DNA of 64,000 nt from the NCBI GenBank assembly GCA_964036665.1, contig OZ038529.1, positions 15,570,060-15,634,059 of the forward strand, read 5' to 3'. The stretch comes from Gordius sp. MW1. Taxonomy: Eukaryota; Nematomorpha; Gordioida; Gordea; Gordiidae. The position numbers and the translations under genes are program-made. The notes under the pieces are model-generated. The model saw only the letters and a list, made by a program, of their open reading frames with translations. It did no database searches and was not told where the DNA came from. This document shows, piece by piece, positions 1 through 64,000 of this stretch. Numbering within the stretch: the stretch's first letter is position 1; the number at the start of each line of letters is the position of its first letter.

Positions 1-7
1 CACTCAC

Positions 8-46
8 GTTGCGATACAACAAACTAATCGCAACAATAAAACGTTG
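8..46. other. Conserved dyad at the monomer start (example copy)
   Basis: GTTGCGAT at 8-15 and ATCGCAAC at 27-34 form a perfect 8-bp inverted repeat around an 11-nt loop. The CAAC ending the right arm (31-34) can also pair with GTTG at 43-46. The same core recurs in nearly every monomer of the window. About a third of copies read GATGCAAC instead of GATACAAC. This leaves the 8-bp arms intact and adds a tighter GTTGC-GAT-GCAAC hairpin. Protein binding or cruciform formation is an inference only. Confidence 0.75.
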
Positions 47-168
47 TCTTTTGTCAAAATGATAGTTCTCGCAGCTTAAAACCTCTTTGCGGAAGTGAAT
101 CGAGGATAATAGGATTCTCAGATTGGCTTACTTTTATATATTTTTTTACGCTCTTTCACATAGAATCG

Positions 169-213
169 AAAAAAATAAATATTTTTACCTCAAAATTTTT
201 CACATATTTTTCT
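169..213. other. Spaced A/T tracts in each monomer (example copy), possible curved DNA
   Basis: After CATAGAATCG each monomer carries an A7 run, then T5, A4T5 and T5 tracts whose starts lie roughly 10-14 bp apart. This run is among the best-conserved stretches of the repeat. A few copies lose AAAA before TTTTTCAC (for example near 2600, 7340, 8360, 14210, 49300 and 60240). Tracts near the helical period are known to bend DNA; that they do so here is inferred. Confidence 0.55.
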
Positions 214-345
214 TTGGACCGTATTCATCCGATGAATGTTTTCGTTTTCAGACGTGGTTTCTATGATCCCAAGTAAAAATTTATCAGAATCTAAAAACTA
301 TTACTTTAAAATCATAATCGCATAGAGCAGTTTTCAAAAATTAAG

Positions 346-692
346 CACTCACGTTGCGATACAACAAACTAATCGCAACAATAAAACGTTGTCTTTTGTC
401 AAAATGAATATTTCTGGCAGCTTAAAACCTCTTTTCGGAAGTAAATCGAGGATAATAGGATTCTCAAATTGGCTTACTTTTATATATTTTTTTACGCTCT
501 TTCACATAGAATAGAAAAAAATAAATATTTTTATCTCAAAATTTTTCACATATTTTCTTTGAACCGTATTCATCCGATGAAAGTTGTCGTTTTCAGACGT
601 GGTTTCTATGATCCCAAGTAAAAATTTATCAGAATCTAAAAACTATTACTTTGAAATCATGATCGCATAGAGCCATTTTGAAAAATTAAGCA
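346..692 (+). repeat. Representative satellite monomer with landmarks
   Basis: A typical ~344-bp unit, given as a guide to the array. In order it contains: the dyad core GTTGCGAT/ATCGCAAC; a second GTTG in AAACGTTGTC; a variable site after GTCAAAATG; the CTCGCAGC or CTGGCAGC motif; a site alternating TTGCGG or TTTCGG; GTC/GTG/GTAAATCGAGGATAATAGG; the TTTATATATTTTTT tract; CTCTTTCACATAGAATCG; an A/T-tract run; TTTG(A/G)ACCGTATTCATCCGATG; TTTTCAGACGTGG; TTTCTATGATCCCAAG; and a polymorphic tail GCATAGAGCC, GCATAATGCA, GCATAATGGA or GCATATTTTC. These linked variants define the higher-order units. Confidence 0.9.
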
Positions 693-3600
693 TCACGTTG
701 CGATGCAACAAACTAATCGCAACAATAAAACGTTGTCTTTTGTTAAAATGATAGTTCTCGCAGCTTAAAACCTCTTTGCGGAAGTGAATCGAGGATAATA
801 GGAATCTCAGATTGGCTTACTTTTATATATTTTTTACGCTCTTTCACATAGAATCGAAAAAAATAAATGTTTTTACCTCAAAATTTTTCACATATTTTTT
901 TTTGAACCGTATTCATCCGATGAAAGTTGTCGTTTTCAGACGTGGTTTCTATGATCCCAAGTAAAAATTTATCAGAATCTAAAAACTATTACTTTGAAAT
1001 CATGATCGCATAGAGCCATTTTGAAAAATTAAGCATCACGTTGCGATGCAACAAACTAATCGCAACAATAAAACGTTGTCTTTTGTTAAAATGATAGTTC
1101 TCGCAGCTTAAAACCTCTTTGCGGAAGTGAATCGAGGATAATAGGAATCTCAGATTGGCTTACTTTTATATATTTTTTACGCTCTTTCACATAGAATCGA
1201 AAAAAATAAATGTTTTTACCTCAAAATTTTTCACATATTTTTTTTTGAACCGTATTCATCCGATGAAAGTTGTCGTTTTCAGACGTGGTTTCTATGATTA
1301 TAAGTAAAAATTTATCAGAATCTGAAAACTACTACTTTGAAATCATGATCGCATAATGCATTTTTGAAAAATTAAGCACTCACGTTGCGATACAACAAAC
1401 TAATCGCAACAATAAAACGTTGTCTTTTGTCAAATTGATAGTTCTCGCAGCTTAAAACCTCTTTTCGGAAGTCAATCGAGGATAATAGGATTCTTAAATT
1501 GGCTTACTTTTATATATTTTTTCATGCTCTTTAACATAGAATCGAAAAAAATAAATATTTTTCCCTCAAAATTTTTCACATATTTTTCTTTGGACCGTAT
1601 TCATCCGATGAAAGTTGTCGTTTTCAGACGTGGTTTCTATGATCCCAAGTAATAATTTATCAGAATCTGAAAACTATTACTTTGAAATCATGATCGCATA
1701 GAGCCATTTTGAAAAATTAAGCATCACGTTGCGATGCAACAAACTAATCGTAACAATAAAACGTTGTCTTTTGTTAAAATGATAGTTCTCGCAGCTTAAA
1801 ACCTCTTTGCGGAAGTGAATCGAGGATAATAGGAATCTCAGATTGGCTTACTTTTATATATTTTTTACGCTCTTTCACATAGAATCGAAAAAAATAAATG
1901 TTTTTACCTCAAAATTTTTCACATATTTTTTTTTGAACCGTATTCATCCGATGAAAGTTGTCGTTTTCAGACGTGGTTTCTATGATCCCAAGTAAAAATT
2001 TATCAGAATCTGAAAACTATTACTTTGAAATCATGATCGCATAATGCATTTTTGAAAAATTAAGCACTCACGTTGCGATACAACAAACTAATCGCAACAA
2101 TAAAACGTTGTCTTTTGTCAAAATGATAGTTCTCGCAGCTTAAAACCTCTTTTCGGAAGTCAATCGAGGAAAATAGGATTCTTAAATTGGCTTACTTTTA
2201 TATATTTTTTTATGCTCTTTAACATAGAATCGAAAAAAATAAATATTTTTACCTTAAAATTTTTCACATATTTTTCTTTGGACCGTATTCATCCGATGAA
2301 AGTTGTCGTTTTCAGACGTGGTTTCTATGATCCCAAGTAATAATTTATCAGAATCTGAAAACTATTACTTTGAAATCATGATCGCATAGAGCCATTTTGA
2401 AAAATTAAGCATCACGTTGCGATGCAACAAACTAATCGCAACAACAAAACGTTGTCTTTTGTCAAAATGATAGTTCTCGCAGCTTAAAACCTCTTTTCGG
2501 AAGTCAATCGAGGATAATAGGATTCTCAAATTGGCTTACTTTTATATATTTTTTCATGTTGTTTCACATAGAATCGAAAAAAATAAATATTTTTACCTCA
2601 TTTTTCACATATTTTTCTTTGAACCGTATTCATCGGATGAAAGTTGTCGTTTTCAGACGTGGTTTCTATGATCCCAAGTAAAAATTTATCAGAATCTAAA
2701 AACTATTAGTTTGAAATCATAATCGCATAGAGCAGTTTTCAAAAATTAAGCACTCACGTTGCGATACAACAAACTAATCGCAACAATAAAACGTTGTCTT
2801 TTGTCAAAATGATAGTTCTCGCAGCTTAAAACCTCTTTTTGGAAGTCAATCGAGGATAATAGGATTCTCAAATTTTTTCATGCTCTTTCACATAGAATTG
2901 AAAAAAATAAATATTTTTACCTCAAAATTTTTCACATATTTTTCTTTGAACCGTATTCATCCGATGAAAGTTGTCGTTTTCAGACGTGGTTTCTATGATC
3001 CCAAGTAAAAATTTTTTAGAATCTAAAAACTATTACTTTGAAATCATAATCGCATAGAGCAGTTTTCAAAAATTCAGCACTCACGTTGCGATACAACAAA
3101 CTAATCGCAACAATAAAACGTTGTCTTTTGTCAAAATGATAGTTCTCGCAGCTTAAAACCTCTTTGCGGAAGTCAATCGAGGATAATAGGATTCTCAAAT
3201 TGGCTTACTTTTATATATTTTTTTACGCTCTTTGACATAGAATCGAAAAAAATTAATAGTTTTACCTCAAAATTTTTCACATATTTTTCTTTGGACCGTA
3301 TTCATCCGATGAAAGTTGTCGTTTTCAGACGTGGTTTCTATGATCCCAAGTAATAATTTATCAGAATCTGAAAACTATTACTTTGAAATCATGATCGCAT
3401 AGAGCCATATTAAGCACTCACGTTGCGATACAACAAACTAATCGCAACAATAAAACGTTGTCTTTTGTCAAAATGATAGTTCTCGCAGCTTAAAACCTCT
3501 TTGCGGAAGTGAATCGAGGATAATAGGATTTTCAAATTGGCTTACTTTTATATATTTTTTTACGCTCTTTCACATAGAATCGAAAAAAATAAATATTTTT

Positions 3601-4900
3601 ACCTCAAAATTTTTCACATATTTTTCTTTCAACCGTATGCATCCGATGAAAGTTCTCGTTTTCAGACGTGGTTTCTATGATCCCAAGTAATAATTTATCA
3701 GAATCTGAAACCTATTACTTTGAAATCATGATCGCATAGAGCCATTTTGAAAAATTAAGCATCACGTTGCGATGCAACAAACTAATCGCAACAATAAAAC
3801 GTTGTCTTTTGTCAAAATGATAGTTCTCGCAGCTTAAAACCTCTTTGCGGAAGTGAATCGAGGATAATAGGATTTTCAAATTGGCTTACTTTTATATATT
3901 TTTTTACGCTCTTTCACATAGAATCGAAAAAAATAAATATTTTTACCTCAAAATTTTTCACATATTTTTCTTTGGACCGTATTCATCCGATGAAAGTTGT
4001 CGTTTTCAGACGTGGTTTCTATGATCCCAAGTAATGATTTATCAGAATCTGAAAACTATTTCTTTGAAATCATGATCGCATAGAGCCATTTTGAAAAATT
4101 AAGCACTCACGTTGCGATGCAACAAACTAATCGCAACAATAAAACGTTGTCTTTTGTCAAAATGTTAGTTCTCGCAGCTTAAAACCTCTTTTCGGAAGTC
4201 AATCGAGGATAATAGGATTCTCAAAATGGCTTACTTTTATATATTTGTTCATGCTCTTTCGCATACTATCGAAAAAAATAAATATTTTTACCTCAAAATT
4301 TTTCACATATTTTTCTTTGAACCGTATTCATCCGATGAAAGTTGTCGTTTTCAGACGTGGTTTCTATGATCCCAAGTTAAAATTTATCAGAATCTCAAAA
4401 CTATTACTTTGAAATCATAATCGCATAGAGCAGTTTTCAAAAATTCAACACTCACGTTGCGATACAACAAACTCATCGCAACAATAAAACGTTGTCTTTT
4501 GTCAAAATGAATAGTTCTGGGAGCTTAAAACCTCTTTTCGGAAGTAAATCGAGGATAATAGGATTCTCAAATTGGCTTACTTTTATATATTTTTTTACGC
4601 TCTTTCACATACTTTCGAAAAAAATAAATATTTTTACCTCAAAATTTTTCACATATTTTTCTTTGAACCGTATTCATCCGATGAAAGTTGTCGTTTTGAG
4701 ACGTGGTTTCTATGATCCCAAGTAAAAATTTATCAGAATCTGAAAACTATTCCTTTGAAATCATGATCGCATAGAGCCATTTTGAAAAATTAAGCATCAC
4801 GTTGCGATGCAACAAACTAATCGCAACAATAAAACGTTGTCTTTTGTCAAAATGATAGTTCTCGCAGCTTAAAACCTCTTTTCGGAAGTCAATCGAGGAT

Positions 4901-4905
4901 AATAG
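4901..4905. repeat. Target-site duplication, left copy (AATAG)
   Basis: AATAG lies immediately before the left LTR and is repeated at 6916-6920 directly after the right LTR. It comes from the conserved satellite stretch GAGGATAATAGGATTCTC. Removing the 2010-bp element and one 5-bp copy leaves a 338-bp monomer. That is the length expected for this variant, which lacks 6 bp in its GCATATTTTC tail. A 6-bp duplication (AATAGT) cannot be excluded because both sides continue with T. Confidence 0.88.
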
Positions 4906-4984
4906 TTTTCTATACACCAATAAGTATAGAATTTAGAAATATTCATTTAGTTATTTTAGAATTTATTTATTCGTTTCAAGGTAT

Positions 4985-5007
4985 GTCCTCCCCCAAAAAG
5001 GGAGGAC
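4985..5007. other. Perfect GC-rich stem-loop in the left LTR
   Basis: GTCCTCCC (4985-4992) pairs with GGGAGGAC (5000-5007) around a 7-nt loop. It stands out as a GC-rich hairpin in AT-rich surroundings and is identical in the other LTR at 6452-6474. On the minus strand it lies downstream of AATAAA, so it could be an R/U5 structural element or a transcript end. It is followed by A/T sequence rather than a clean T-run, so it is not a bacterial terminator. Confidence 0.6.
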
Positions 5008-5034
5008 TGGATCTAGAACTCTCCGGTAATAAAC

Positions 5035-5040
5035 TTTATT
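5035..5040 (-). promoter_or_regulatory. AATAAA polyadenylation-like signal in the left LTR
   Basis: TTTATT on the plus strand gives AATAAA on the minus strand, inside the downstream LTR and upstream of the stem-loop at 4985-5007. This is a plausible 3'-end signal for the element transcript. The identical motif lies at 6502-6507 in the other LTR. Chance occurrence is likely in AT-rich sequence, so support is mainly positional. Confidence 0.4.
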
Positions 5041-5448
5041 AATATCAGATCAAAAAAAATATAACTATCTTTACAAATATATAACTGACTTTTACAAACA
5101 ATTCGTACTTTAAATAGCAGGAATAATAATGATGATGGTTGATGTAAATAGGTAAACCATACAATAACGATCGGGGGTTGATTGAAGATGAAAATATGTA
5201 AACAACACCATCACGATCGGGGAGGGGGATTATAACAAACAAACGCGTTAGGACTGCGTGACAATAAATTTGAATAGTCATACAACTAGCAAGGGGAGGG
5301 TAATAAAACTAAAAGGGTAATTGAACAAGCCAAGAATAGTAATTAAAACACGAAAGGGGGGAAGAAAAATAGCTATATCATAAAACTAGAACTAAGCAAC
5401 CAAAACTGGATAAAACCAAAATTAAGAGGGGATTGGCGTTATGCCACA

Positions 5449-5462
5449 CCTTACCCTTTACC
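5449..5462 (-). other. Polypurine-tract-like sequence next to the 3' LTR
   Basis: On the minus strand this reads GGTAAAGGGTAAGG and abuts the TGTGGC start of the LTR. A purine-rich primer for plus-strand DNA synthesis is expected at exactly this place in LTR elements. Two T residues interrupt it. The opposite side of the interior has no comparable tract, which supports the minus-strand orientation. Confidence 0.6.
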
Positions 5463-5483
5463 AAATAACAAACTTGACCTTTA

Positions 5484-5918
5484 CTATTTCTGGCAATTTT
5501 GTAATCTCCACATTCCGGCTTTTTGACCGACCTTGATCTTGACATTGACCTTGCTATTAACATTGACCTTCATATTGACATCGATATTGACATTGACCTC
5601 GATATTGCCACTACTTCCCGACAAATTCCAAGGATGACTCATTGAGTTCAGAGCCTTATATACCCGAGGATGACTCAAAGAGTTCAGAGCCTCATATACC
5701 CGAGGATGACTCAAAGAGTTCAGAGCCTCAATACTCGGTTTAGTAGTACAATTGCAAACCAAAAAATCTCCGTCATGTCCTTCCTTCAAATTATTCATAT
5801 AAGCCACTTTACAAAAAAATGTCATTTCCTTCCTTCCAATTATCAATATGATCCACTTTACAAAAATCGCCTTTTCCCCTTTCATAAAATCATGCTTATA
5901 TCGCCCAATAATATTCAA
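5484..5918 (-). CDS. Unrecognised 144-codon frame in the LTR element interior
   Basis: An open frame on the element's sense strand, not recognised as any family. The N-terminal ~65 residues are lysine-rich and contain a CNC pair but no zinc-knuckle spacing. Residues ~63-98 are three 12-residue repeats (EALNSLSHPRVY type) encoded by the 36-bp tandem repeat. Residues ~105-130 are an alternating V-N/D/K stretch (VNVNIDVNMKVNVN type) encoded by a 12-bp-type repeat. Both repeats have periods divisible by three, so they keep the frame open without any need for selection. No gag, protease or polymerase motif is visible. It could be a degenerate gag remnant, a novel small protein or, most likely, a chance frame. 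Confidence 0.25.
   Translation of the reverse strand: MNIIGRYKHDFMKGEKAIFVKWIILIIGRKEMTFFCKVAYMNNLKEGHDGDFLVCNCTTKPSIEALNSLSHPRVYEALNSLSHPRVYKALNSMSHPWNLSGSSGNIEVNVNIDVNMKVNVNSKVNVKIKVGQKAGMWRLQNCQK
5524..5608. repeat. Imperfect 6/12-bp tandem repeat (GACATTGACCTT type)
   Basis: About seven imperfect 12-bp units of the form (G/A)A(C/T)ATTGACCTT, with TATTGACATC-type variants. It is the leftmost of five short tandem repeats inside the LTR element and encodes the V-N-V-K-like stretch in the minus-strand frame. Confidence 0.75.
5631..5735. repeat. 36-bp tandem repeat, about three copies
   Basis: AGGATGACTCA recurs at 5631, 5667 and 5703, exactly 36 bp apart. Units 2 and 3 are nearly identical; unit 1 differs in a few positions (ATTGAG for AAAGAG). 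The last unit ends early at CTCAATACTCGG. It encodes 12-residue repeats in the minus-strand frame. Confidence 0.9.
5772..5869. repeat. 49-bp tandem duplication
   Basis: GTCAT(G/T)TCCTTCCTTC begins at 5772 and 5821, 49 bp apart. The two copies share the TCCTTCCTTC start and a CCACTTTACAAAAA end, with several differences between. A weaker third copy may continue to about 5915. Confidence 0.7.
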
Positions 5919-6102
5919 CTAAACAAGGGGGGGGGTTAATATAAAATTGATTAATAACAATATAATAATCATATTAATGTAACACAATAATAATTTAGGT
6001 TTCAATTTAAATTATTTGCTTTCAGTGGGTTTTCACTCAATTTTACCAGACATTTTGGATATCTTCATTAATCCCCAATGGTTTAAGAATTTTTTTTTAT
6101 AC
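5919..6102. other. AT-rich element interior without recognised features
   Basis: Between the 49-bp and 66-bp repeats the only notable feature is a run of nine G residues at 5927-5935 followed by AT-rich sequence. No open frame of note or conserved motif is seen. The G9 run may be miscounted in the assembly. Confidence 0.5.
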
Positions 6103-6230
6103 CTTCCCTGAACATCGCCATTAGAATTTTTCAGAATTCCTTTATTGAATATTTTTCAGAATACCCAACTTCCCTGAAAATTGCCATCAGAATTTTTCAT
6201 AATTCCTTCATTGAATACTATTCAGAATAT
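6103..6230. repeat. 66-bp tandem duplication
   Basis: CTTCCCTGAA starts at 6103 and again at 6169. Both copies continue through GCCAT(T/C)AGAATTTTTCA, AATTCCTT(T/C)ATTGAATA and TTCAGAATA. Divergence is greater than between the 36-bp units. Confidence 0.75.
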
Positions 6231-6271
6231 CTGCTAAGAATTATTTGCTTTCGATGTGTCTGTCCATCGCT

Positions 6272-6356
6272 GCGGCGTGACTTTGCTTCCAGTGGATTCG
6301 AATAAAAAGCGGCGTGATTTTGCTTCCAGTCGATTCGAATAAAAAGCGGCGTGACT
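6272..6356. repeat. 37-bp tandem repeat, about 2.3 copies
   Basis: GCGGCGTGA recurs at 6272, 6309 and 6346, spaced 37 bp. Units 1 and 2 differ at only a few positions, and the third is cut off after GCGGCGTGACTTTG just before the right LTR. It is the most GC-rich part of the element interior and lies in what would be the 5' leader of the transcript. Confidence 0.88.
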
Positions 6357-6370
6357 TTGAGCTATCACCA
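6354..6370 (-). other. Possible primer-binding site (weak)
   Basis: On the minus strand the interior begins AT and then TGGTGATAGCTCAAAGT, two bases after the 5' LTR. Primer-binding sites normally start with TGG, complementary to the tRNA CCA end, within a few bases of the LTR. I could not match the rest to a known tRNA 3' end, so this rests on position and the TGG alone. Confidence 0.3.
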
Positions 6371-6372
6371 AT

Positions 6373-6915
6373 TTTTCTATACACTAATAAGTATAGAATT
6401 TAGAAATATTCATTTAGTTATTTTAGAATTTATTTATTCGTTTCAAGGTATGTCCTCCCCCAAAAAGGGAGGACTGGATCTAGAACTCTCCGGTAATAAA
6501 CTTTATTAATATCAGATCAAAAAAAATATAACTATCTTTACAAATATATAACTGACTTTTACAAACAATTCGTACTTTAAATAGCAGGAATAATAATGAT
6601 GATGGTTGATGTAAATAGGTAAACCATACAATAACGATCGGGGGTTGATTGAAGATGAAAATATGTAAACAACACCATCACGATCGGGGAGGGAGATTAT
6701 AACAAACAAACGCGTTAGGACTGCGTGACAATAAATTTGAATAGTCATACAACTAGCAAGGGGAGGGTAATAAAACTAAAAGGGTAATTGAACAAGCCAA
6801 GAATAGTAATTAAAACACGAAAAGGGGGAAGAAAAATAGCTATATCATAAAACTAGAACTAAGCAACCAAAACTGGATAAAACCAAAATTAAGAGGGGAT
6901 TGGCGTTATGCCACA
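6373..6915 (-). repeat. Right LTR (5' LTR of the minus-strand element)
   Basis: Direct repeat of the left LTR at a constant offset of 1467 bp, with no length difference. In the minus-strand reading it supplies the promoter region (U3) and the start of the transcript. No convincing TATA box or initiator could be singled out by eye because the LTR is very AT-rich. Its outer boundary at 6915 (GCCACA) is fixed by the following AATAG duplication and resumption of satellite sequence. Confidence 0.9.
6452..6474. other. Perfect GC-rich stem-loop in the right LTR
   Basis: Same 8-bp perfect stem and 7-nt loop as at 4985-5007, conserved without change between the LTRs. In the minus-strand reading this copy would lie within the 5' leader region of the transcript. 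Confidence 0.6.
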
Positions 6916-6920
6916 AATAG
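6916..6920. repeat. Target-site duplication, right copy (AATAG)
   Basis: AATAG directly follows the right LTR, and satellite sequence resumes as TATTCTCAAATTGG. The usual satellite base after AATAG is G; here it is T. This is either a variant of the target monomer or a later mutation. Confidence 0.88.
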
Positions 6921-7199
6921 TATTCTCAAATTGGCTTACTTTTATATATTTTTTCATGCTCTTTCACATACTATCGAAAAAAATAAATATTTTTACCTCA
7001 AAATTTTTCACATATTTTTCTTTGAACCGTATTCATCCGATGAAAGTTGTCGTTTTCAGACGTGGTTTCTATGATCCCAAGTAAAAATTTATCAGAATCT
7101 GAAAACTATTACTTTGAAATCATGATCGCATATTTTCAAAAATTAAGCATCACGTTGCGATACAACAAACTAATCGCAACAATAAAACGTTGTCTTTTG

Positions 7200-9030
7200 T
7201 CAAAATGATGGTTCTCGCAGCTTAAAACCTCTTTTCGGAAGTCAATCGAGGATAATAGGATTCTCAAATTGGCTTACTTTTATATATTTTTTCATGCTGT
7301 TTCACATAGAATCGAAAAAAATAAATATTTTTACCTCATTTTTCACATATTTTTCTTTGGACCGTACGCATCCGATGAAAGTTGTCGTTTTCAGACGTGG
7401 TTTCTATGATCCCAAGTAAAAATTTATCAGAATCTGAAAACTATTACTTTGAAATCATGATCGCATATTTTCAAAAATTAAGCATCACGTTGCAATACAA
7501 CAAACTAATCGCAACAATAAAACGTTGTCTTTTGTCAAAATGTTAGTTCTCGCAGCTTAAAACCTCTTTGCGGAAGTCAATCGAGGATAATAGGATTCTC
7601 AAATTGGCTTACTTTTATATATTTTTTTACGCTCTTTCACATAGGATCGAAAAAAATAAATATTTTTACCTCAAAATTTTTCACATATTTTTCTTTGGAC
7701 CGTATGCATCCGATGAAAGTTGTCGTTTTCAGACGTGGTTTCTATGATCCCAAGTAAAAATTTATCAGAATCAGAAAACTATTACTTTGAAATCATGATC
7801 GCATAATGCATTTTTGAAAAATTAAGCACTCACGTTGCGATACAACAAACTAATCGCAACAATAAAACGTTGTCTTTTGTCAAAATGTTAGTTCTCGCAG
7901 CTTAAAACCTCTTTGCGGAAGTCAATCGAGGATAATAGGATTCTCAAATTGGCTTACTCTTATATATTTTTTTACGCTCTTTCACATAGAATCGAAAAAA
8001 ATAAATATTATTACCTCAAAATTTTTCACATATTTTTCTTTCAACCGTATGCATCCGATGAAAGTTCTCGTTTTCAGACGTGGTTTCTATGATCCCAAGT
8101 AATAATTTATCAGAATCTGAAACCTATTACTTTGAAATCATGATCGCATAGAGCCATTTTGAAAAATTAAGCATCACGTTGCGATGCAACAAACTAATCG
8201 CAACAAGAAAACGTTGTCTTTTGTCAAAATGATAGTTCTCGCAGCTTAAAACCTCTTTTCGGAAGTCAATCGAGGATAATAGGATTCTCAAATTGGCTTA
8301 CTTTTATATATTTTTTCATGCTGTTTCACATAGAATCGAAAAAAATAAATATTTTTACCTCATTTTTCACATATTTTTCTTTGAACCGTATTCATCCGAT
8401 GAAAGTTGTCGTTTTCAGACGTGGTTTCTATGATCCCAAGTAAAAATTTATTAGAATCTAAAAACTATTACTTTGAAATCATAATCGCTTAGAGCAGTTT
8501 TCAAAAATTCAGCACTCACGTTGCGATACAACAAACTAATCGCAACAATAAAACGTTGTCTTTTGTCAAAATGATAGTTCTTGCAGCTTAAAACCTCTTT
8601 GCGGAAGTCAATCGAGGATAATACGATTCTCAAATTGGCTTACTTTTATATATTTCTTTACGCTCTTTCACATAGAACCGAAAAAAATAAATATTTTTAC
8701 CTCAAAATTTTTCACATATTTTTCTTTGGACCGTATTCATCCGATGAAAGTTGTCGTTTTCAGACGTGGTTTCTATGATCCCTAGTTAAAATTTATCAGA
8801 ATCTCAAAACTATTACTTTGAAATCATGATCGCATAGAGCCATTTTGAAAAATTAAGCATCACGTTGCGATGCAACAAACTAATCGCAACAATAAAACGT
8901 TGTCTTTTGTCAAAATGATAGTTCTCGCAGCTTAAAACCTCTTTTCGGATGTCAATCGAGGATAATAGGATTCTCAAATTGGCTTACTTTTATATATTTT
9001 TTCATGCTGTTTCACATAGAATCGAAAAAA
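7200..9030 (+). repeat. Outlying copy of the 6-mer satellite unit
   Basis: The variant order here (ATGATGGTTCTCGC, then CCGTACGCATCC, two ATGTTAG monomers, AAGAAAACG, then TACGATTCTC) matches 13050-14880 and 15100-16930. It lies upstream of, and partly overlaps, the 4-mer array. It ends where AAAATTTTCAC in this copy meets AAAATTTTTCAC in the others. Confidence 0.8.
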
Positions 9031-12000
9031 ATAAATATTTTTACCTCAAAATTTTCACATATTTTTCTTTGAACCGTATTCATCCGATGAAAGTTGTCGT
9101 TTTCAGACGTGGTTTCTATGATCCCAAGTAAAAATTTATTAGAATCTAAAAACTATTACTTTGAAATCATAATTGCATAGAGCAGTTTTCAAATATTCAG
9201 CTCTCACGTTGCGATACAACAAACTAATCGCAACAATAAAACGTTGTCTTTTGTCAAATTGAATAGTTCTGGCAGCTTAAAACCTCTTTTCGGAAGTAAA
9301 TCGAACATAATAGGATTCTCAAATTGGCTTACTTTTATATATTTTTTTACGCTCTTTCACATAGAATCGAAAAAAATAAATATTATTACCTCAAAATTTT
9401 TCACATATTTTTCTTTCAACCGTATGCATCCGATGAAAGTTCTCGTTTTCAGACGTGGTTTCTATGATCCCAACCAAGTAATAATTTATCAGAATCTGAA
9501 ACCTATTACTTTAAAATCATGATCGCATAGAGCCATTTTGAAAAATTAAGCATCACGTTGCGATGCAACAAACTAATCGCAACAATAAAACGTTGTCTTT
9601 TGTCAAAATGATAGTTCTCGCAGCTTAAAACCTCTTTTCGGAAGTCAATCGAGGATAATAGGATTCTCAAATTGGCTTACTTTTATATATTTTTTCATGC
9701 TGTTTCACATAGAATCGAAAAAAATAAATATTTTTACCTCATTTTTCACATATTTTTCTTTGAACCGTATTCATCCGATGAAAGTTGTCGTTTTCAGACG
9801 TGGTTTCTATGATCCCAAGTAAAAATTTATTAGAATCTAAAAACTATTACTTTGAAATCATAATCGCTTAGAGCAGTTTTCAAAAATTCAGCACTCACGT
9901 TGCGATACAACAAACTAATCGCAACAATAAAACGTTGTCTTTTGTCAAAATGATAGTTCTTGCAGCTTAAAACCTCTTTGCGGAAGTCAATCGAGGATAA
10001 TACGATTCTCAAATTGGCTTACTTTTATATATTTTTTTACGCTCTTTCACATAGAACCGAAAAAAATAAATATTTTTACCTCAAAATTTTTCACATATTT
10101 TTCTTTGGACCGTATTCATCCGATGAAAGTTGTCGTTTTCAGACGTGGTTCCTATGATCCCTAGTTAAAATTTATCAGAATCTCAAAACTATTACTTTGA
10201 AATCATGATCGCATAGAGCCATTTTGAAAAATTAAGCATCACGTTGGGATGCAACAAACTAATCGCAACAATAAAACGTTGTCTTTTGTCAAAATGATAG
10301 TTCTCGCAGCTTAAAACCTCTTTTCGGATGTCAATCGAGGATAATAGGATTCTCAAATTGGCTTACTTTTATATATTTTTTCATGCTGTTTCACATAGAA
10401 TCGAAAAAAATAAATATTTTTACCTCAAAATTTTCACATATTTTTCTTTGAACCGTATTCATCCGATGAAAGTTGTCGTTTTCAGACGTGGTTTCTATGA
10501 TCCCAAGTAAAAATTTATTAGAATCTAAAAACTATTACTTTGAAATCATAATTGCATAGAGCAGTTTTCAAATATTCAGCTCTCACGTTGCGATACAACA
10601 AACTAATCGCAACAATAAAACGTTGTCTTTTGTCAAATTGAATAGTTCTGGCAGCTTAAAACCTCTTTTCGGAAGTAAATCGAACATAATAGGATTCTCA
10701 AATTGGCTTACTTTTATATATTTTTTTACGCTCTTTCACATAGAATCGAAAAAAATAAATATTATTACCTCAAAATTTTTCACATATTTTTCTTTCAACC
10801 GTATGCATCCGATGAAAGTTCTCGTTTTCAGACGTGGTTTCTATGATCCCAACCAAGTAATAATTTATCAGAATCTGAAACCTATTACTTTAAAATCATG
10901 ATCGCATAGAGCCATTTTGAAAAATTAAGCATCACGTTGCGATGCAACAAACTAATCGCAACAATAAAACGTTGTCTTTTGTCAAAATGATAGTTCTCGC
11001 AGCTTAAAACCTCTTTTCGGAAGTCAATCGAGGATAATAGGATTCTCAAATTGGCTTACTTTTATATATTTTTTCATGCTGTTTCACATAGAATCGAAAA
11101 AAATAAATATTTTTACCTCATTTTTCACATATTTTTCTTTGAACCGTATTCATCCGATGAAAGTTGTCGTTTTCAGACGTGGTTTCTATGATCCCAAGTA
11201 AAAATTTATTAGAATCTAAAAACTATTACTTTGAAATCATAATCGCTTAGAGCAGTTTTCAAAAATTCAGCACTCACGTTGCGATACAACAAACTAATCG
11301 CAACAATAAAACGTTGTCTTTTGTCAAAATGATAGTTCTTGCAGCTTAAAACCTCTTTGCGGAAGTCAATCGAGGATAATACGATTCTCAAATTGGCTTA
11401 CTTTTATATATTTTTTTACGCTCTTTCACATAGAACCGAAAAAAATAAATATTTTTACCTCAAAATTTTTCACATATTTTTCTTTGGACCGTATTCATCC
11501 GATGAAAGTTGTCGTTTTCAGACGTGGTTTCTATGATCCCTAGTTAAAATTTATCAGAATCTCAAAACTATTACTTTGAAATCATGATCGCATAGAGCCA
11601 TTTTGAAAAATTAAGCATCACGTTGCGATGCAACAAACTAATCGCAACAATAAAACGTTGTCTTTTGTCAAAATGATAGTTCTCGCAGCTTAAAACCTCT
11701 TTTCGGATGTCAATCGAGGATAATAGGATTCTCAAATTGGCTTACTTTTATATATTTTTTCATGCTGTTTCACATAGAATCGAAAAAAATAAATATTTTT
11801 ACCTCAAAATTTTCACATATTTTTCTTTGAACCGTATTCATCCGATGAAAGTTGTCGTTTTCAGACGTGGTTTCTATGATCCCAAGTAAAAATTTATCAG
11901 AATCTAAAAACTATTACTTTGAAATCATAATTGCATAGAGCAGTTTTCAAATATTCAGCTCTCTCACGTTGCGATACAACAAACTAATCGCAACAATAAA

Positions 12001-50110: not shown

Positions 50111-50116
50111 AAAATT

Positions 50117-53825: not shown

Positions 53826-54234
53826 AATTTATCAGAATCTAAAAACCACTACTTTGAAATCATAATCGCATAGAGCAGTTTTCAAAAATTAAGCACTCAC
53901 GTTGCGATACAACAAACTAATCGCTACAATAAAACGTTGTCTTTTGTCAAAATGAATATTTCTGGCAGCTTAAAACCTCTTTTCGGAAGTAAATCGAGGA
54001 TAATCGGATTCTCAAATTGGCTTACTTTTATATATTTTTTTACGCTCTTTCACATAGAATCGAAAAAAATAAATATTTTTACCTCAAAATTTTTCACATA
54101 TTTTTCTTTGGACCGTATTCATCCGATGAAAGTTGTCGTTTTCAGACGTGGTTTCTATGATCCCAAGTAATAATTTATCAGAATCTGAAAACTATTACTT
54201 TGAAATCATGATCGCATAGAGCCATTTTGAAAAA

Positions 54235-57200
54235 TTAAGCATCACGTTGCGATGCAACAAACTAATCGCAACAATAAAACGTTGTCTTTTGTCAAAATGA
54301 TAGTTCTCGCAGCTTAAAACCTCTTTTCGGAAGTCAATCGAGGATAATAGGATTCTCAAATTGGCTTACTTTTATATATTTTTTCATCTGTTTCACATAG
54401 AATCGAAAAAAATTAATATTTTTACCTCATTTTTCACATATTTTTATTTGAACCGTATTCATCCGATGAAAGTTGTCGTTTTCAGACGTGGTTTCTATGA
54501 TCTTAAGTAAAAATTTATCAGAATCTAAAAAGTATTACTTTGAAATCATAATCGCATAGAGCAGTTTTCAAAAATTAAGCACTCACGTTGCGATACAACA
54601 AACTAATCGCAACAATAAAACGTTGTCTTTTGTCAAAATGATAGTTCTCGCAGCTTAAAACCTCTTTTCGGAAGTCAATCGAGGATAATAGGATTCTCAA
54701 ATTTTTTCATGCTCTTTCACATAGAATTGAAAAAAATAAATATTTTTACCTCAAAATTTTTCACATATTTTTCTTTGAACCGTATTCATCCGATGAAAGT
54801 TGTCGTTTTCAGACGTGGTTTCTATGATCCCAAGTAAAAATTTATCAGAATCTAAAAACTATTACTTTGAAATCATAATCGCATAGAGCAGTTTTCAAAA
54901 ATTCAGCACTCACGTTGCGATACAACTAACTAATCGCAACAATAAAATGTTGTCTTTTGTCAAAATGATAGTTCTCGCAGCTTAAAACCTCTTTGCGGAA
55001 GTCAATCGAGGATAATAGGATTCTCAAATTGGCTTACTTTTATATATTTTTTTATGCTCTTTCACATAGAATCGAAAAAAATAAATATTTTTACCTCAAA
55101 ATTTTTCACATATTTTTCTTTGGACCGTATTCATCCGATGAAAGTTGTCGTTTTCAGACGTGGTTTCTATGATCCCAAGTAATAATTTATCAGAATCTGA
55201 AAATTATTACTTTGAAATCATGATCGCATAGAGCCATTTTGAAAAATTAAGCATCACGTTGCGATGCAACAAACTAATCGCAACAATAAAACGTTGTCTT
55301 TTGTCAAAATGATAGTTCTCGCAGCTTAAAACCTCTTTGCTGAAGTGAATCGAGGATAATAGGATTCTCAAATTGGCTTACTTTTATATATTTGTTCATA
55401 TTCTTTCGCATACTATCGAAAAAAATAAATATTTTTACCTCAAAATTTTTCACATATTTTTCTTTGAACCGTATTCATCCGATGAAAGTTGTCGTTTTCA
55501 GACGTGGTTTCTATGATCCCAAGTTAAAATTTATCAGAATCTCAAAACTATTACTTTGAAATCATAATCGCATAGAGCAGTTTTCAAAAATTCAACACTC
55601 ACGTTGCGATACAACAAACTCATCGCAACAATAAAACGTTGTCTTTTGTCAAAATGAATAGTTCTGGAAGCTTAAAACCTCTTTTCGGAAGTAAATCGAG
55701 GATAATAGGATTCTCAAATTGGCTTACTTTTATATATTTTTTTACGCTCTTTCACATACTATCGAAAAAAATAAATATTTTTACCTCAAAATTTTTCACA
55801 TATTTTTCTTTGAACCGTATTCATCCGATGAAAGTTGTCGTTTTCAGACGTGGTTTCGATGATAAAAAGTAAAAATTTATCAGAATCTGAAAACTATTAC
55901 TTTGAAATCATGATCGCATAGAGCCATTTTCAAAAAGTAAGCATCACGTTGCGATACAACAAACTAATCGCAACAATAAAACGTTTTCTTTTGTCAAAAT
56001 GATAGTTCTCGCAGCTTAAAACCTCTTTTCGGAAGTCAATCGAGGATAATATGATTCTCAAATTGGCTAACTTTTATATTTTTTCATGCTCTTTCACATA
56101 CAATCGAAAAAAATAAATATTTTCACCTCAAAATTTTTCACATATTTTTCTTTCAACCGTATGCATCCGATGAAAGTTGTCGTTTTCAGACGTGGTTTCG
56201 ATGATAAAAAGTAAAAATTTATCAGAATCAGAAAACTATTACTATGAAATCATGATCGCATAGTGCATTTTTGAAAAATAAAGCACTCACGTTGCGATAC
56301 AACAAACTAATCGCAAAAATAAAACGTTGTCTTTTGTCAAAATGATAGATCTCGCAGCTTAAAACCTCTTTTCGGAAGTAAATCGAGGATAATAGGATTC
56401 TCAAATTGGCTTACTTTTATATATTTTTTCATGCTCTTTCACACAAAATCGAAAAAAATAAATATTTTTACCTTAAAATTTTTCACATATTTTTCTTCGG
56501 ACCGTATTCATATAATGAAAGTTGTCGTTTTCAGACGTGGTATCTTTGATCCCAAGTAATAATTTATCAGACTGAAAACTATTACTTTGAAATCATGATC
56601 GCATAATGCATTTTTGAAAAATTAAGCACTCACGTTGCGATGCAACAAACTAATCGCAACAATAAAACGTTGTCTTTTGTTAAAATGATAGTTCTCGCAG
56701 CTTAAAACCTCTTTGCGGAAGTGAATCGAGGATAATAGGAATCTCAGATTGGCTTACTTTTATATATTTTTTACGCTCTTTCACATAGAATCGAAAAAAA
56801 TAAATGTTTTTACCTCAAAATTTTTCACATATTTTTTTTTGAACCGTATTCATCCGATGAAAGTTGTCGTTTTCAGACGTGGTTTCTATGATCCCAAGTA
56901 AAAATTTATCAGAATCTGAAAACTATTACTTTGAAATCATGATCGCATAATGCATTTTTGAAAAATTAAGCACTCACGTTGCGATACAACAAACTAATCG
57001 CAACAATAAAACGTTGTCTTTTGTCAAAATGATAGTTCTCGCAGCTTAAAACCTCTTTTCGGAAGTCAATCGAGGATAATAGGATTCTTAAATTGGCTTA
57101 CTTTTATATATTTTTTCATGCTCTTTAACATAGAATCGAAAAAAATAAATATTTTTACCTCAAGATTTTTCACATATTTTTCTTTGGACCGTATTCATCC

Positions 57201-60200
57201 GATGAAAGTTGTCGTTTTCAGACGTGGTTTCTATGATCCCAAGTAATAATTTATCAGAATCTGAAAATTATTACTTTGAAATCATGATCGCATAGAGCCA
57301 TTTTGAAAAATTAAGCATCACGTTGCGATGCAACAAACTAATCGCAACAATAAAACGTTGTCTTTTGTTAAAATGATAGTTCTCGCAGCTTAAAACCTCT
57401 TTGCGGAAGTGAATCGAGGATAATAGGAATCTCAGATTGGCTTACTTTTATATATTTTTTACGCTCTTTCACATAGAATCGAAAAAAATAAATGTTTTTA
57501 CCTCAAAATTTTTCACATATTTTTTTTTGAACCGTATTCATCCGATGAAAGTTGTCGTTTTCAGACGTGGTTTCTATGATCCCAAGTACAAATTTATCAG
57601 AATCTGAAAACTATTACTTTGAAATCATGATCGCATAATGCATTTTTGAAAAATTAAGCACTCACGTTGCGATACAACAAACTAATCGCAACAATAAAAC
57701 GTTGTCTTTTGTCAAAATGATAGTTCTCGCAGCTTAAACCTCTTTTCGGATGTCAATCGAGGATAATAGGATTCTTAAATTGGCTTACTTTTATATATTT
57801 TTTCATGCTCTTTAACATAGAATCGAAAAAAATAAATATTTTTACCTCAAAATTTTTCACATATTTTTCTTTGGACCGTATTCATCCGATGAAAGTTGTC
57901 GTTTTTAGACGTGGTTTCTATGATCCCAAGTAATAATTTATCAGAATCTGAAAACTATTACTTTGAAATCATGATCGCATAGAGCCATTTTGAAAAATTA
58001 AGCATCACGTTGCGATGCAACAAACTAATCGCAACAATAAAACGTTGTCTTTTGTCAAAATGATAGTTCTCGCAGCTTAAAACCTCTTTTCGGAAGTCAA
58101 TCGAGGATAATAGGAGTCTCAAATTGGCTTACTTTTATATATTTTTTCATGCTGTTTCACATAGAATCGAAAAAAATAAATATTTTTACCTCATTTTTCA
58201 CATATTTTTCTTTGAACCGTATTCATCCGATGAAAGTTGTCGTTTTCAGACGTGGTTTCTATGATCCCAAGTAAAAATTTATCAGAATCTAAAAACTATT
58301 ACTTTGAAATCATAATCGCATAGAGCAGTTTTCAAAAATTAAGCACTCACGTTGCGATACAACAAACTAATCGCAACAATAAAACGTTGTCTTTTGTCAA
58401 AATGATAGTTCTCGCAGCTTAAAACCTCTTTTTGGAAGTCAATCGAGGATAATATTCTCAAATTTTTTCATGCTCTTTCACATAGAATTGAAAAAAATAA
58501 ATATTTTTACCTCAAAATTTTTCACATATTTTTCTTTGAACCGTATTCATCCGATGAAAGTTGTCGTTTTCAGACGTGGTTTCTATGATCCCAAGTAAAA
58601 AATTTTTAGAATCTAAAAACTATTACTTTGAAATCATAATCGCATAGAGCAGTTTTCAAAAATTCAGCACTCACGTTGCGATACAACAAACTAATCGCAA
58701 CAATAAAACGTTGTCTTTTGTCAAAATGATAGTTCTCGCAGCTTAAAACCTCTTTGCGGATGTCAATCGAGGATAATAGGATTCTCAAATTGGCTTACTT
58801 TTATATATTTTTTTACGCTCTTTGACATAGAATCGAAAAAAAATAATAGTTTTACCTCAAAATTTTTCACATATTTTTCTTTGGACCGTATTCATCCGAT
58901 GAAAGTTGTCGTTTTCAGACGTAATTTCTATGATCCCAAGTAATAATTTATCAGAATCTGAAAACTATTACTTTGAAATCATGATCGCATAGAGCCATTT
59001 TGAAAAATTAAGCATCACGTTGCGATGCAACAAACTAATCGCAACAATAAAACGTTGTCTTTTGTCAAAATGATAGTTCTCGCAGCTTAAAACCTCTTTG
59101 CGGAAGTGAATCGAGGATAATAGGTTTATCAAATTGGCTTACTTTTATATATTTTTTTACGCTCTTTCACATAGAATCGAAAAAAATAAATATTTTTACA
59201 TCAAAATTTTTCACATATTTTTCTTTGGACCGTATTCATCCGATGAAAGTTGTCGTTTTCAGACGTGGTTTCTATGATCCCAAGTAATGATTTATCAGAA
59301 TCTGAAAACTATTACTTTGAAATCATGATCGCATAGAGCCATTTTGAAAAATTAAGCACTCACGTTGCGATGCAACAAACTAATCGCAACAATAAAACGT
59401 TGTCTTTTGTCAAAATGATAGTTCTCGCAGCTTAAAACCTCTTTTCGGAAGTCAATCGAGGATAATAGGATTCTCAAAATGGCTTACTTTTATATATTTG
59501 TTCATGCTCTTTCGCATACTATCGAAAAAAATAAATATTTTTACCTCAAAATTTTTCACATATTTTTCTTTGAACCGTATTCATCCGATGAAAGTTGTCG
59601 TTTTCAGACGTGGTTTCTATGATCCCAAGTTAAAATTTATCAGAATCTCAAAACTATTACTTTGAAATCATAATCGCATAGAGCAGTTTTCAAAAATTCA
59701 ACACTCACGTTGCGATACAAAAAACTCATCGCAACAATAAAACGTTGTCTTTTGTCAAAATGAATAGTTCTGGGAGCTTAAAACCTCTTTTCGGAAGTAA
59801 ATCGAGGATAATAGGATTCTCAAATTGGCTTACTTTTATATATTTTTTTACGCTCTTTCACATACTTTCGAAAAAAATAAATATTTTTACCTCAAAATTT
59901 TTCACATATTTTTCTTTGAACCGTATTCATCCGATGAAAGTTGTCGTTTTCAGACGTGGTTTCTATGATCCCAAGTAAAAATTTATCAGAATCTGAAAAC
60001 TATTACTTTGAAATCATGATCGCATAGAGCCATTTTGAAAAATTAAGCATCACGTTGCGATGCAACAAACTAATCGCAACAATAAAACGTTGTCTTTTGT
60101 CAAAATGATAGTTCTCGCAGCTTAAAACCTCTTTTCGGAAGTCAATCGAGGATAATAGGATTCTCAAATTGGCTTACTTTTATATATTTTTTCATGCTGT

Positions 60201-62785
60201 TTCACATAGAATCGAAAAAAATAAATATTTTTACCTCATTTTTCACATATTTTTATTTGAACCGTATTCATCCGATGAAAGTTGTCGTTTTCAGACGTGG
60301 TTTCTATGATCTTAAGTAAAAATTTATCAGAATCTAAAAAGTATTACTTTGAAATCATAATCGCATAGAGCAGTTTTCAAAAATTAAGCACTCACGTTGC
60401 GATACAACAAACTAATCGCAACAATAAAACGTTGTCTTTTGTCAAAATGATAGTTCTCGCAGCTTAAAACCTCTTTTCGGAAGTCAATCGAGGATAATAG
60501 GATTCTCAAATTTTTTCATGATCTTTCACATAGAATTGAAAAAAATAAATATTTTTACCTCAAAATTTTTCACATATTTTTCTTTGAACCGTTTACATCC
60601 GATGAAAGTTGTCGTTTTCAGACGTGGTTTTGATGATAAAAAGTAAAAATTTATCAGAATCTGAAAACTATTACTTTGAAATCATGATCGCATAGAGCCA
60701 TTTTCAAAAAGTAAGCATCACGTTGCGATACAACAAACTAATCGCAACAATAAAACGTTGTCTTTTGTCAAAATGATAGTTCTCGCAGCTTAAAACTTCT
60801 TTTCGGAAGTCAATCGAGGATAATAGGATTCTCAAATTGGCTTACTTTTATATATTTTTTCATGCTGTTTCACATAGAATCGAAAAAAATAAATATTTTT
60901 ACCTCATTTTTCACATATTTTTATTTGAACCGTATTCATCCGATGAAAGTTGTCGTTTTCAGACGTGGTTTCTATGATCTTAAGTAAAAATTTATCAGAA
61001 TCTAAAAACTATTACTTTGAAATCATAATCGCATAGAGCAGTTTTCAAAAATTCAGCACTCACGTTGCGATACAACTAACTAATCGCAACAATAAAATGT
61101 TGTCTTTTGTCAAAATGATAGTTCTCGCAGCCTAAAACCTCTTTGCGGAAGTCAATCGAGGATAATAGGATTCTCAAATTGGCTTACTTTTATATATTTT
61201 TTTATGCTCTTTCACATAAAATCGAAAAAAATAAATATTTTTACATCAAAATTTTTCACATATTTTTCTTTGGACCGTATTCATCCGATGAAAGTTGTCG
61301 TTTTCAGACGTGGTTTCTATGATCCCAAGTAATAATTTATCAGAATCTGAAAATTATTACTTTGAAATCATGATCGCATAGAGCCATTTTGAAAAATTAA
61401 GCATCACGTTGCGATGCAACAAACTAATCGCAACAATAAAACGTTGTCTTTTGTCAAAATGATAGTTCTCGCAGCTTAAAACCTCTTTGCTGAAGTGAAT
61501 CGAGGATAAGAGGATTCTCAAATTGGCTTACTTTTATATATTTGTTCATGCTCTTTCGCATACTATCGAAAAAAATAAATATTTTTACCTCAAAATTTTT
61601 CACATATTTTTCTTTGAACCGTATTCATCCGATGAAAGTTGTCGTTTTCAGACGTGGTTTCTATGATCCCAAGTTAAAATTTATCAGAATCTCAAAACTA
61701 TTACTTTGAAATCATAATCGCATAGAGCAGTTTTCAAAAATTCAACACTCACGTTGCGATACAACAAACTCATCGCAACAATAAAACGTTGTCTTTTGTC
61801 AAAATGAATAGTTCTGGGAGCTTAAAACCTCTTTTCGGAAGTAAATCGAGGATAATAGGATTCTCAAATTGGCTTACTTTTATATATTTTTTTACGCTCT
61901 TTCACATACTATCGAAAAAAATAAATATTTTTACCTCAAAATTTTTCACATATTTTTCTTTGTACCGTATTCATCCGATGAAAGTTGTCGTTTTCAGACG
62001 TGGTTTCGATGATAAAAAGTAAAAATTTATCAGAATCTGAAAACTATTACTTTGAAATCATGATCGCATAGAGCCATTTTCAAAAAGTAAGCATCACGTT
62101 GCGATACAACAAACTAATCGCAACAATAAAACGTTTTCTTTTGTCAAAATGATAGTTCTCGCAGCTTAAAACCTCTTTTCGGAAGTCAATCGAGGATAAT
62201 ATGATTCTCAAATTGGCTTACTTTTATATTTTTTCATGCTCTTTCACATACAATCGAAAAAAATAAATATTTTTACCTCAAAATTTTTCACATATTTTTC
62301 TTTCAACCGTTTGCATCCGATGAAAGTTTTCGTTTTCAGACGTGGTTTCGATGATAAAAAGTAAAAATTTATCAGAATCAGAAAACTATTACTATGAAAT
62401 CATGATCGCATAGTGCATTTTTGAAAAATTAAGCACTCACGTTGCGATACAACAAACAAATCGCAAAAATAAAACGTTGTCTTTTGTCAAAATGATAGTT
62501 CTCGCAGCTTAAAACCTCTTTTCGGAAGTCAATCGAGGATAATAGGATTCTCAAATTGGCTTACTTTTATATATTTTTTCATGCTCTTTCACACAAAATC
62601 GAAAAAAATAAATATTTTTACCTCAAAATTTTTCACATATTTTTCTTCGGACCGTATTCATATAATGAAAGTTGTCGTTTTCAGACGTGGTATCTTTGAT
62701 CCCAAGTAATAATTTATCAGACTGAAAACTATTACTTTGAAATCATGATCGCATAATGCATTTTTGAAAAATTAAGCACTCACGT
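54235..62785 (+). repeat. Large satellite segmental duplication, offset about 5.8-6.15 kb
   Basis: 54.24-54.75 kb matches 60.05-60.57 kb (offset about 5812), and 54.90-56.63 kb matches 61.05-62.78 kb (offset 6150). The difference is one extra monomer at about 60.6-60.95 kb in the right copy. Shared rare markers are ATACAACTAACTAATCG with AAAATGTTG, TTTGCTGAAGTG, GTTCATGCTCTTTCGC or its ATATTC variant, GTTTCGATGATAAAAAG, TTCATATAATG and TTTATCAGACTG. Between the copies, 56.63-60.16 kb matches the left end of the window. Confidence 0.85.
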
Positions 62786-64000
62786 TGCGATACAACAAAC
62801 TAATCGCAACAATAAAACGTTGTCTTTTGTCAAAATGATAGTTCTCGCAGCTTAAAACCTCTTTTCGGAAGTAAATCGAGGATAATAGGATTCTCAAATT
62901 GGCTTACTTTTATATATTTTTTTACGCTCTTTCACATACTATCGAAAAAAATAAATATTTTTACCTCAAAATTTTTCACATATTTTTCTTTGAACCGTAT
63001 TCATCCGATGAAAGTTGTAGTTTTCAGACGTGGTTTCTATGATCCCAAGTGAAAATTTATCAGAATCTGAAAACTATTACTTTGAAATCATGATCGCATA
63101 GAGCCATTTTGAAAAATTAAGCATCACGTTGCGATGCAACAAACTAATCGCTACAATAAAACGTTGTCTTTTGTCAAAATGATAGTTCTCGCAGCTTAAA
63201 ACCTCTTTTCGGAAGTCAATCGAGGATAATAGGATTCTCAAATTGGCTTACTTTTATATATTTTTTCATGCTCTTTCACATACTATCGAAAAAAATAAAT
63301 ATTTTTACCTCAAAATTTTTCACATATTTTTCGTTGAATCGTATTCATCCGATGAAAGTTGTCGTTTTCAGACGTGGTTTCTATGATCCCAAGTAAAAAT
63401 TTATCAGAATCTGAAAACTATTACTTTGAAATCATGATCGCATATTTTCAAAAATTAAGCATCACGTTGCGATACAACAAACTAATCGCAACAATAAAAC
63501 GTAGTCTTTTGTCAAAATGTTAGTTCTCGCAGCTTAAAACCTCTTTGCGGAAGTCAATAGAGGATAATAGGATTCTCAAATTGGCTTACTTTTATATATT
63601 TTTTTACGCTCTTTCACATAGAATCGAAAAAAAAATATTTTTACCTCAAAATTTTTCACATATTTTTCTTTGGACCGTATGCATCCGATGAAAGTTGTCG
63701 TTTTCAGACGTGGTTTCTATGATCCCAAGTAAAAATTTATCAGAATCAGAAAACTATTACTTTGAAATCATGATCGCATAATTCGTTTTTGAAAAATTAA
63801 GCACTCACGTTGCGATACAACAAACTAATCGCAACAATAAAACGTTGTCTTTTGTCAAAATGTTAGATCTCGCAGCTTAAAACCTCTTTGCGGAAGTCAA
63901 TCGAGGATAATAGGATTCTCAAATTGGCTTACTCTTATATATTTTTTTACGCTCTTTCACATAGAATCGAAAAAAATAAATATTTTTACCTCAAAATTTT
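62785..64000 (+). repeat. Right-end satellite monomers paralogous to 4.4-8.0 kb
   Basis: The series GATGCAAC monomer with CATACTATCG and a GCATATTTTC tail, then two ATGTTAG/ATGTTAGATC monomers with TATGCATCC and TTACTCTTATA, parallels 4790-4905 joined to 6916-7140 and then 7480-8000. One monomer (about 7150-7480) is absent here. The site corresponding to the LTR insertion is intact at 63228-63232. The final monomer is cut by the window edge. Confidence 0.75.

Follow-up and report, generated by a model that had tools for sequence, protein, structure and literature searches.

Human alpha satellite consists of AT-rich 171-bp monomers arranged in higher-order repeats (HORs) of near-identical multimers and forms one block per chromosome. 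The DNA studied here, G000:C3:15,570,060-15,634,059 (the window, 64,000 nucleotides in its whole length), is made up of two stretches of an AT-rich satellite with a unit of about 344 bp, termed A, and one insertion between them. Like alpha satellite, A is AT-rich, is organised in HORs of near-identical multimers and occupies one block per chromosome. Unlike it, A has a unit of 344 bp rather than 171 bp and no CENP-B box was found in it, a related second satellite (termed B) lies inside the block, and the strands of the flanks are opposed. The mouse minor and major satellites likewise place two satellites of different abundance in each centromeric region; A and B differ from these in being mutually related (about 65%) and in forming blocks that lie mostly away from chromosome ends. 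The fission yeast centromere resembles the present arrangement in having a central core and flanking repeats in opposite orientation, and differs from it in measuring tens of kilobases rather than megabases, whereas here tandem satellites lie on both sides and the symmetry is broken on some chromosomes. Holocentric nematodes share with this animal a satellite-rich genome and belong to a related phylum; passages of PMC7392213 describe many satellites scattered through the genomes of holocentric nematodes and none scattered in the monocentric Trichinella spiralis, and unlike those scattered satellites the copies listed here all lie in a single block on each chromosome.

The window is likely to be a piece of the right flank of the centromeric block of chromosome C3 of a gordioid hairworm, and the A/B block to organise the centromere, a role that we infer mainly because one block was found on each of eight chromosomes. 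As far as can be judged from sequence, the satellite block probably marks the centromeres.

Genomic distribution of satellites A and B

The genome was mapped over 211.8 Mb and eight chromosomes (C1 to C8). An 18-mer of A, present in 170 copies in the window, had 52,533 exact matches in the genome (31,285 forward and 21,248 reverse) and was carried by 380 of the 428 monomers aligned from ten samples; from these figures A totals about 20 Mb. Copies were placed from three sets of matches: 122 places (the best-scoring, from 40 scored of 2,145 candidates), 100 listed of 124, and 100 listed of 260. The 100-of-124 set is that of a rare A variant and is complete for C1 to C6, reaching 10.22 Mb on C7; C8 was placed from other samples. 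All listed A copies fell into one block per chromosome, on 8/8 chromosomes; centromeric satellites of monocentric chromosomes form a large block on each. The blocks lie at 11.25-14.49 Mb on C1, 8.67-12.49 Mb on C2, 12.80-16.84 Mb on C3 (with the window inside), 2.47-3.38 Mb on C4, 11.02-13.93 Mb on C5, 13.34-16.25 Mb on C6, 9.13-10.50 Mb on C7 and 13.50-14.83 Mb on C8. Their spans (0.9-4.0 Mb) run between sampled copies and are lower bounds; together they amount to 20.5 Mb, about 10% of the genome, and their midpoints stand at 0.12-0.64 of chromosome length. No rare-variant copy lay outside the blocks on C1 to C6, for which the list is complete.

Satellite B (349-353 bp) was first met in two samples from mid-block on C3 and C5. 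Its consensus is about 65% alike to that of A, with a local alignment score of 154, whereas none of 50 mononucleotide shuffles scored above 29, and a 16-mer of B had 7,111 matches in the genome. B was found between A copies on seven chromosomes (C1, C2, C3, C4, C5, C7 and C8); on C6 there was none among the samples. The B sample nearest to the window is at 14.80 Mb, about 0.77 Mb away, so that the window would be flank if B is the core. Seventeen of 20 short samples were A or B and three were unrelated, two of these (L063 at C3:16.90 and L072 at C2:13.50) lying beyond the sampled block spans.

The original prediction, drawn from the window alone, had likened the array to centromeric or pericentromeric satellites and had proposed fluorescence in situ hybridization (FISH) as a check. 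The mapping served as an in-silico stand-in for that check and agreed with it, with one block on 8/8 chromosomes and no exact 18-mer on C1 ahead of its first copy there at 11.25 Mb (C1:1-11.25 Mb). In its distribution the satellite behaved as the prediction had it; the centromere function itself is what we infer. The presence of two related satellites on opposed strands in the block, and the kind of animal, could not be read from the window.

Centromere proteins and alternative chromosome organisation

Histone H3 was searched for in the genome. Two intact, identical H3 genes were found, together with one intron-split H3 (pieces of 89-95% identity) and one copy with stops (80-83%). Diverged H3 pieces at C5:23,668,010-23,668,380, with identities of 55% (E 2.7e-6) and 56% (E 0.095), form a CenH3 candidate.

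Several observations weigh against a centromeric role for the block. One piece of the CenH3 candidate contains a stop, and the other has an E of 0.095. A search with the CENP-C profile PF11699 found nothing at E<=1; it was made exon by exon with prokaryotic controls, exons may be split, and its negative result is weak evidence. No CENP-B box was found in A within two mismatches; B has one CENP-B box-like site per unit, with two mismatches, on the minus strand. The blocks are impure, since one of the three short samples inside the C8 block (L069, C8:14.40) was unrelated. CpG is over-represented in A (observed/expected 1.64 over the window and other A samples), depletion being what is expected of methylated DNA. 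Heterochromatin merely beside a centromere fits the window, taken alone, equally well. As a separate observation, CpG observed/expected was 0.96-0.99 in samples of the small contigs C10 and C11.

The CENP-C result would also fit holocentric chromosomes, as in Caenorhabditis, on which the blocks were large, interstitial, knob-like heterochromatin with a passenger satellite and no centromere role; the sister phylum Nematoda does include holocentric species, as passages of PMC7392213 report. One block on each of eight chromosomes is, on the other side, a monocentric pattern, and among the listed copies none lay outside the blocks, as against the scattered satellites that the same passages of PMC7392213 give for holocentric nematodes. 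We regard holocentric chromosomes as improbable here, and a centromeric block as the better account.

Under the centromeric reading, each chromosome would have one block of long A arrays with a smaller amount of related B inside (seen on seven), and this block would organise the centromere. Either B or those HORs of A that are most homogeneous would carry CenH3 chromatin and the kinetochore, and the A flanks, the window included, would form pericentromeric heterochromatin. Unequal exchange and segmental duplication, acting mostly inside a single chromosome, may enlarge the arrays and keep their copies alike, and inversions and inverted duplications may then yield the opposed strands.

Organisation of the array in the window

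When the window was aligned cyclically to the consensus derived from it, 188 segments resulted, of which 179 were full-length monomers with >90% identity to the consensus; the nine dropped were two edge pieces and seven that touch the insertion. Identity of the 179 monomers to the consensus was 97.1% on average (minimum 94.5%) and their pairwise identity 94.8% (minimum 85.5%). The array occupies positions 1..4905 on the + strand to the left of the insertion (TRF, 345 bp x 14.3 copies) and 6916..64000, also on the + strand, to its right (TRF, 344 bp x 166.3 copies, 94% matches). An anchor search, which missed some monomers, placed 140 on the + strand and 0 on the - strand; the + strand alignment spans the entire array, with all 179 full monomers on +. 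The GC content of A is 30.5% over the sampled arrays.

HOR runs were defined as at least four consecutive monomers with at least 98% identity at a fixed lag of 1-59, and the order of the monomers was permuted as a control. There were 15 runs in the window, whereas 100 permutations yielded 0.01 on average. The longest comprised 27 monomers at lag 14 (4,818 bp) that were 99.88% identical; it belongs to a HOR at 25021..44637 (+) in which the 14-mer is followed by a 13-mer variant of 4,473 bp (14 monomers at lag 13, 99.96%). A 7-mer of 2,407 bp is found at 41887..46701 (+; 7 monomers at lag 7, 99.67%), a 6-mer of 2,055 bp at 12310..16759 (+; 7 monomers at lag 6, 99.54%) and a 4-mer of 1,379 bp at 8175..11964 (+; 7 monomers at lag 4, 99.71%). 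The copies are thus head to tail and their HORs exceed chance, as in tandem satellite DNA. HORs of seven monomers (2.41 kb) were also found in samples from the left part of C3 (L046) and the right part of C8 (L051), by a megablast self-comparison that missed the window's own repeats and whose blanks in other samples are uninformative.

The original prediction had described about 180 copies of about 344 bp in one orientation, with HOR structure, no gene and one transposon. The first point was confirmed by the 179 full + strand monomers, with independent agreement from TRF, and the HORs by the permutation control. As far as tested, no gene was found: a search of the window against Rfam gave no match, a tRNA search gave none, and a Pfam scan of 6 of the 16 open reading frames (ORFs) of at least 80 aa gave none at the cut-off and two below it (E 0.07-0.09). 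The transposon is the single insertion described below. The array had also been called unbroken: a satellite of about 344 bp does extend across the window, and it is broken by 2,010 bp at 4906-6915. The proposal of a two-nucleosome unit has the length of 344 bp in its favour and nothing more, the consensus showing no internal half-period of about 172 bp. A was accordingly rejected as a dimer of two halves of about 172 bp, a shift of 172 giving 29.1% identity as against a mean of 28.7% for all shifts.

The 2,010-bp insertion

The insertion (4906..6915, no strand assigned) is like a long terminal repeat (LTR) element, non-autonomous, and without a recognised coding domain. It is bounded by direct terminal repeats of 543 bp at 4906..5448 and 6373..6915, identical at 540 of 543 positions, and flanked by a 5-bp target site duplication, AATAG, at 4901..4905 (+) and 6916..6920 (+), of which the satellite consensus has one copy. 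Direct terminal repeats and a short target duplication are those of an LTR retrotransposon. The termini of LTR retrotransposons are TG...CA; such termini were not found, the ends of the insertion being TTTT...CACA. The two ORFs of at least 80 aa in the insertion were scanned for gag and pol domains, and no Pfam cut-off was reached (one sub-threshold match, E 0.087).

Relatives of the insertion occur on all eight chromosomes (104 matches, from 40 scored of 261 candidates), and its candidacy as a centromere-specific transposon was dropped on that ground. Copies listed at 100% lie in the same array at -13,336 and +63,800 bp, and two more, 98% alike, lie on the opposite strand at C3:13.71 Mb. Positions 1-400 of the window recur at +63,801 with 99% identity (ungapped, 97.5% over the 199 bases still within the window). 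Since both recur at about +63.8 kb, the array appears to have duplicated long segments, insertion included; the duplication is seen at two points, with no alignment through it.

Strand map of the satellite blocks

The sampled copies (positions in Mb; strand after the family letter) run on C1 as A+ 11.25-11.48, A- 11.65-12.25, A+ 12.62-12.88, B+ 12.883-13.0186, B- from 13.0205 and A- 13.54-14.49; on C2 as A+ 8.67-9.06, A- 9.19-9.43, B+ 10.45, A+ 11.15-12.06 and A- 12.49; and on C3 as A- 12.80, A+ 13.02-13.10, A- 13.32-14.20, B- 14.49-14.80, A- 14.97-15.10 and A+ 15.30-16.84, the window lying in the last part. On C4 they are A- 2.47, B- 2.70 and A+ 3.38; on C5, A+ 11.02-12.01, B+ 12.50-12.52, B- 12.80-12.83 and A- 13.24-13.93; on C6, A+ 13.34-14.32 and A- 15.28-16.25; on C7, A+ 9.13-9.69, B+ 9.93, B- 10.126-10.130 and A- 10.22-10.50; and on C8, A+ 13.50-13.80, B- 14.10, unrelated sequence at 14.40 and A- 14.82.

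The outermost sampled strands were opposed on 8/8 chromosomes, convergent on 6/8 and diverging on C3 and C4. The innermost sampled strands (beside B, or beside the C6 sampling gap) were opposed on 7/8 and convergent on 5/8. Strand tests, framed after the pattern had been seen and on hand-entered sampled points, gave p values of 0.004 to 0.035, the value of 0.004 being one-sided for outermost strands opposed on 8/8 if strands are independent. On C1 the strand of B changes once, sharply, at 13,018,586-13,020,464, with 44 copies on + followed by 56 on - (100 listed of 3,562); B+ also precedes B- on C5 and C7. On C4, C7 and C8 the map rests on few points. Within one sample from C6 (L052, C6:13.355-13.365 Mb), an inverted satellite segment of 478 bp occurs twice, 1,849 bp apart (4333-4810 and 6182-6659), and looks as if it had been copied within a higher-order unit.

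A tentative proposal, which we hold to be on the unlikely side, is that hairworm chromosomes are monocentric and their centromeres mirror images over megabases, in the order A, B, strand switch, B, A with both halves pointing towards the switch; the kinetochore would be placed at the strand switch, the mirror would be a feature of function or renewal and not a relic, and holocentricity would have arisen within nematodes after the split.

Two other explanations bear on the opposed strands. Satellite-only contigs are hard to orient, and the switches might be mainly scaffolding artefacts, with such contigs placed in the wrong direction; the arm switch points are known from placed copies on either side, and the internal switches on C1, C2 and C3 would fit. 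Opposition on 8/8 chromosomes (with the post hoc, one-sided p of 0.004) together with convergence on 6/8 is unlike random flips, and the 478-bp segment found twice in L052 shows small inversions within one 10-kb stretch. Artefact as the main cause seems rather unlikely to us, and the switches could in part be scaffolding errors.

Mouse telocentric satellites share one orientation, so that fusions yield mirror arrays. The opposed strands might likewise derive from centric (Robertsonian-type) fusion of ancestral telocentric chromosomes with arrays of fixed direction, brought face to face at their centric ends with B lying at the join. Mirror arrays are what the mouse orientation would lead one to expect, and outermost strands opposed on 8/8 and convergent on 6/8, the single switch of B on C1 and the order of B+ before B- on C5 and C7 all fit. 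The opposed arms of C8 are, however, mutual nearest relatives, which would not be expected of arms from different chromosomes unless they have been homogenised since, and C3 and C4 diverge, with extra internal switches on C1, C2 and C3. Fusion is in our judgement an unlikely origin.

Homogenisation of the arrays

Monomers were compared among ten samples, seven from C3, two from C8 and one from C6. Matches of at least 99% between samples were found among C3 samples only, and these included arms on opposite strands: 21% of the monomers of the left sample at 13.44 Mb had such a match in the window. On C8, the closest relative of left-arm monomers lay in the right arm in 83% of draws, and that of right-arm monomers lay in the left arm in 94%. 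From these comparisons we read copying as mostly within one chromosome and able to cross a strand switch, which favours inversion or inverted duplication over arms from different chromosomes. Three results speak against copying confined to a chromosome: no left-right pair of C8 monomers reached 99%, the left C3 sample at 13.33 Mb had no monomer of at least 99% in any sample, and for three C3 samples 23-29% of nearest neighbours came from the C6 sample.

Identity of the animal and other repeats

A TTAGGG repeat was found at 8/11 chromosome ends read; the C4 start, the C7 start and the C8 end have other sequence. Contig C12 (14,798 bp; L033, L034) is mitochondrial, and genetic code table 5 fits, with ATA, AAA and AGA at usual Met, Lys and Ser positions in cox1 as judged by eye. 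Its genes were named by eye from ORFs, nad3 and nad4L less surely, and run in the order cox1, cox2, atp6, cox3, nad3, nad4L, nad4, nad5, nad2(-), nad6, cytb, nad1(-); the comparison covered these genes, with atp8, rRNAs and tRNAs outside it. The gordioid order given in passages of PMC10380579 is cox1-cox2-atp8-atp6-cox3-nad3-nad4L-nad4-nad5-nad2(-)-nad6-cytb, rRNAs(-), nad1(-). Twenty-nine pairs of inverted repeats were listed on C12, of which 23 were fully complementary, with arms of up to 108 nt, and by coordinates several lie inside the ORFs of nad1, atp6, nad5, nad2 and nad6. For gordioid hairworms, passages of PMC6649704 report long and perfect inverted repeats within the protein genes of the mitochondrion, and they mention shorter repeats, of up to 60 bp, in a gastrotrich. 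C12 has both the gordioid gene order and the inverted repeats within genes. Together with the TTAGGG telomeres, the mitochondrial order and long palindromes suggest that the animal is a gordioid hairworm (Nematomorpha). An insect was considered as the source and rejected because the telomeres are TTAGGG.

A short-unit repeat (GGACAACGGACG-like) fills the samples of C9 (L029, L035, L036) and is also found at the C4 start (L024) and the C8 end (L043), where the telomere repeat was unseen. Two tandem histone clusters were noted on C2, at 12.986-13.214 and 15.176-15.284 Mb, with different unit lengths, of about 5.2 kb and 6.3 kb. Direction changes inside the first, which begins about 0.5 Mb away from the last satellite copy sampled on C2; in the second (L011-L020), L011 holds an H2B, and other matches look like H2A. 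None of the places listed in the search for H3 fell in these clusters.

Biological significance

As a satellite, A is ordinary in kind; its value lies in the animal. Nematomorpha is the sister phylum of Nematoda according to passages of PMC11603191, where four hairworm assemblies are named (Gordionus montsenyensis, Acutogordius australiensis, Nectonema munidae and Gordius aquaticus). Neither a centromere nor a nuclear satellite of hairworms was described in the literature searched with Nematomorpha or hairworm terms (most subscription papers lay outside it, and no search was aimed at hairworm centromeres). Nematode holocentricity is best known in the C. elegans group, and the karyotype evidence for other nematodes is called scarce or controversial in passages of PMC7392213. 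A hairworm with one large satellite block on each chromosome would speak for monocentric chromosomes outside the nematodes, and a single antibody or FISH probe would be enough to test when the change to nematode holocentricity took place; the A and B monomers are directly usable as probe sequences. If the mirror-image reading of the centromeres is true, holocentricity would have arisen within the nematodes, after their split from the hairworms.

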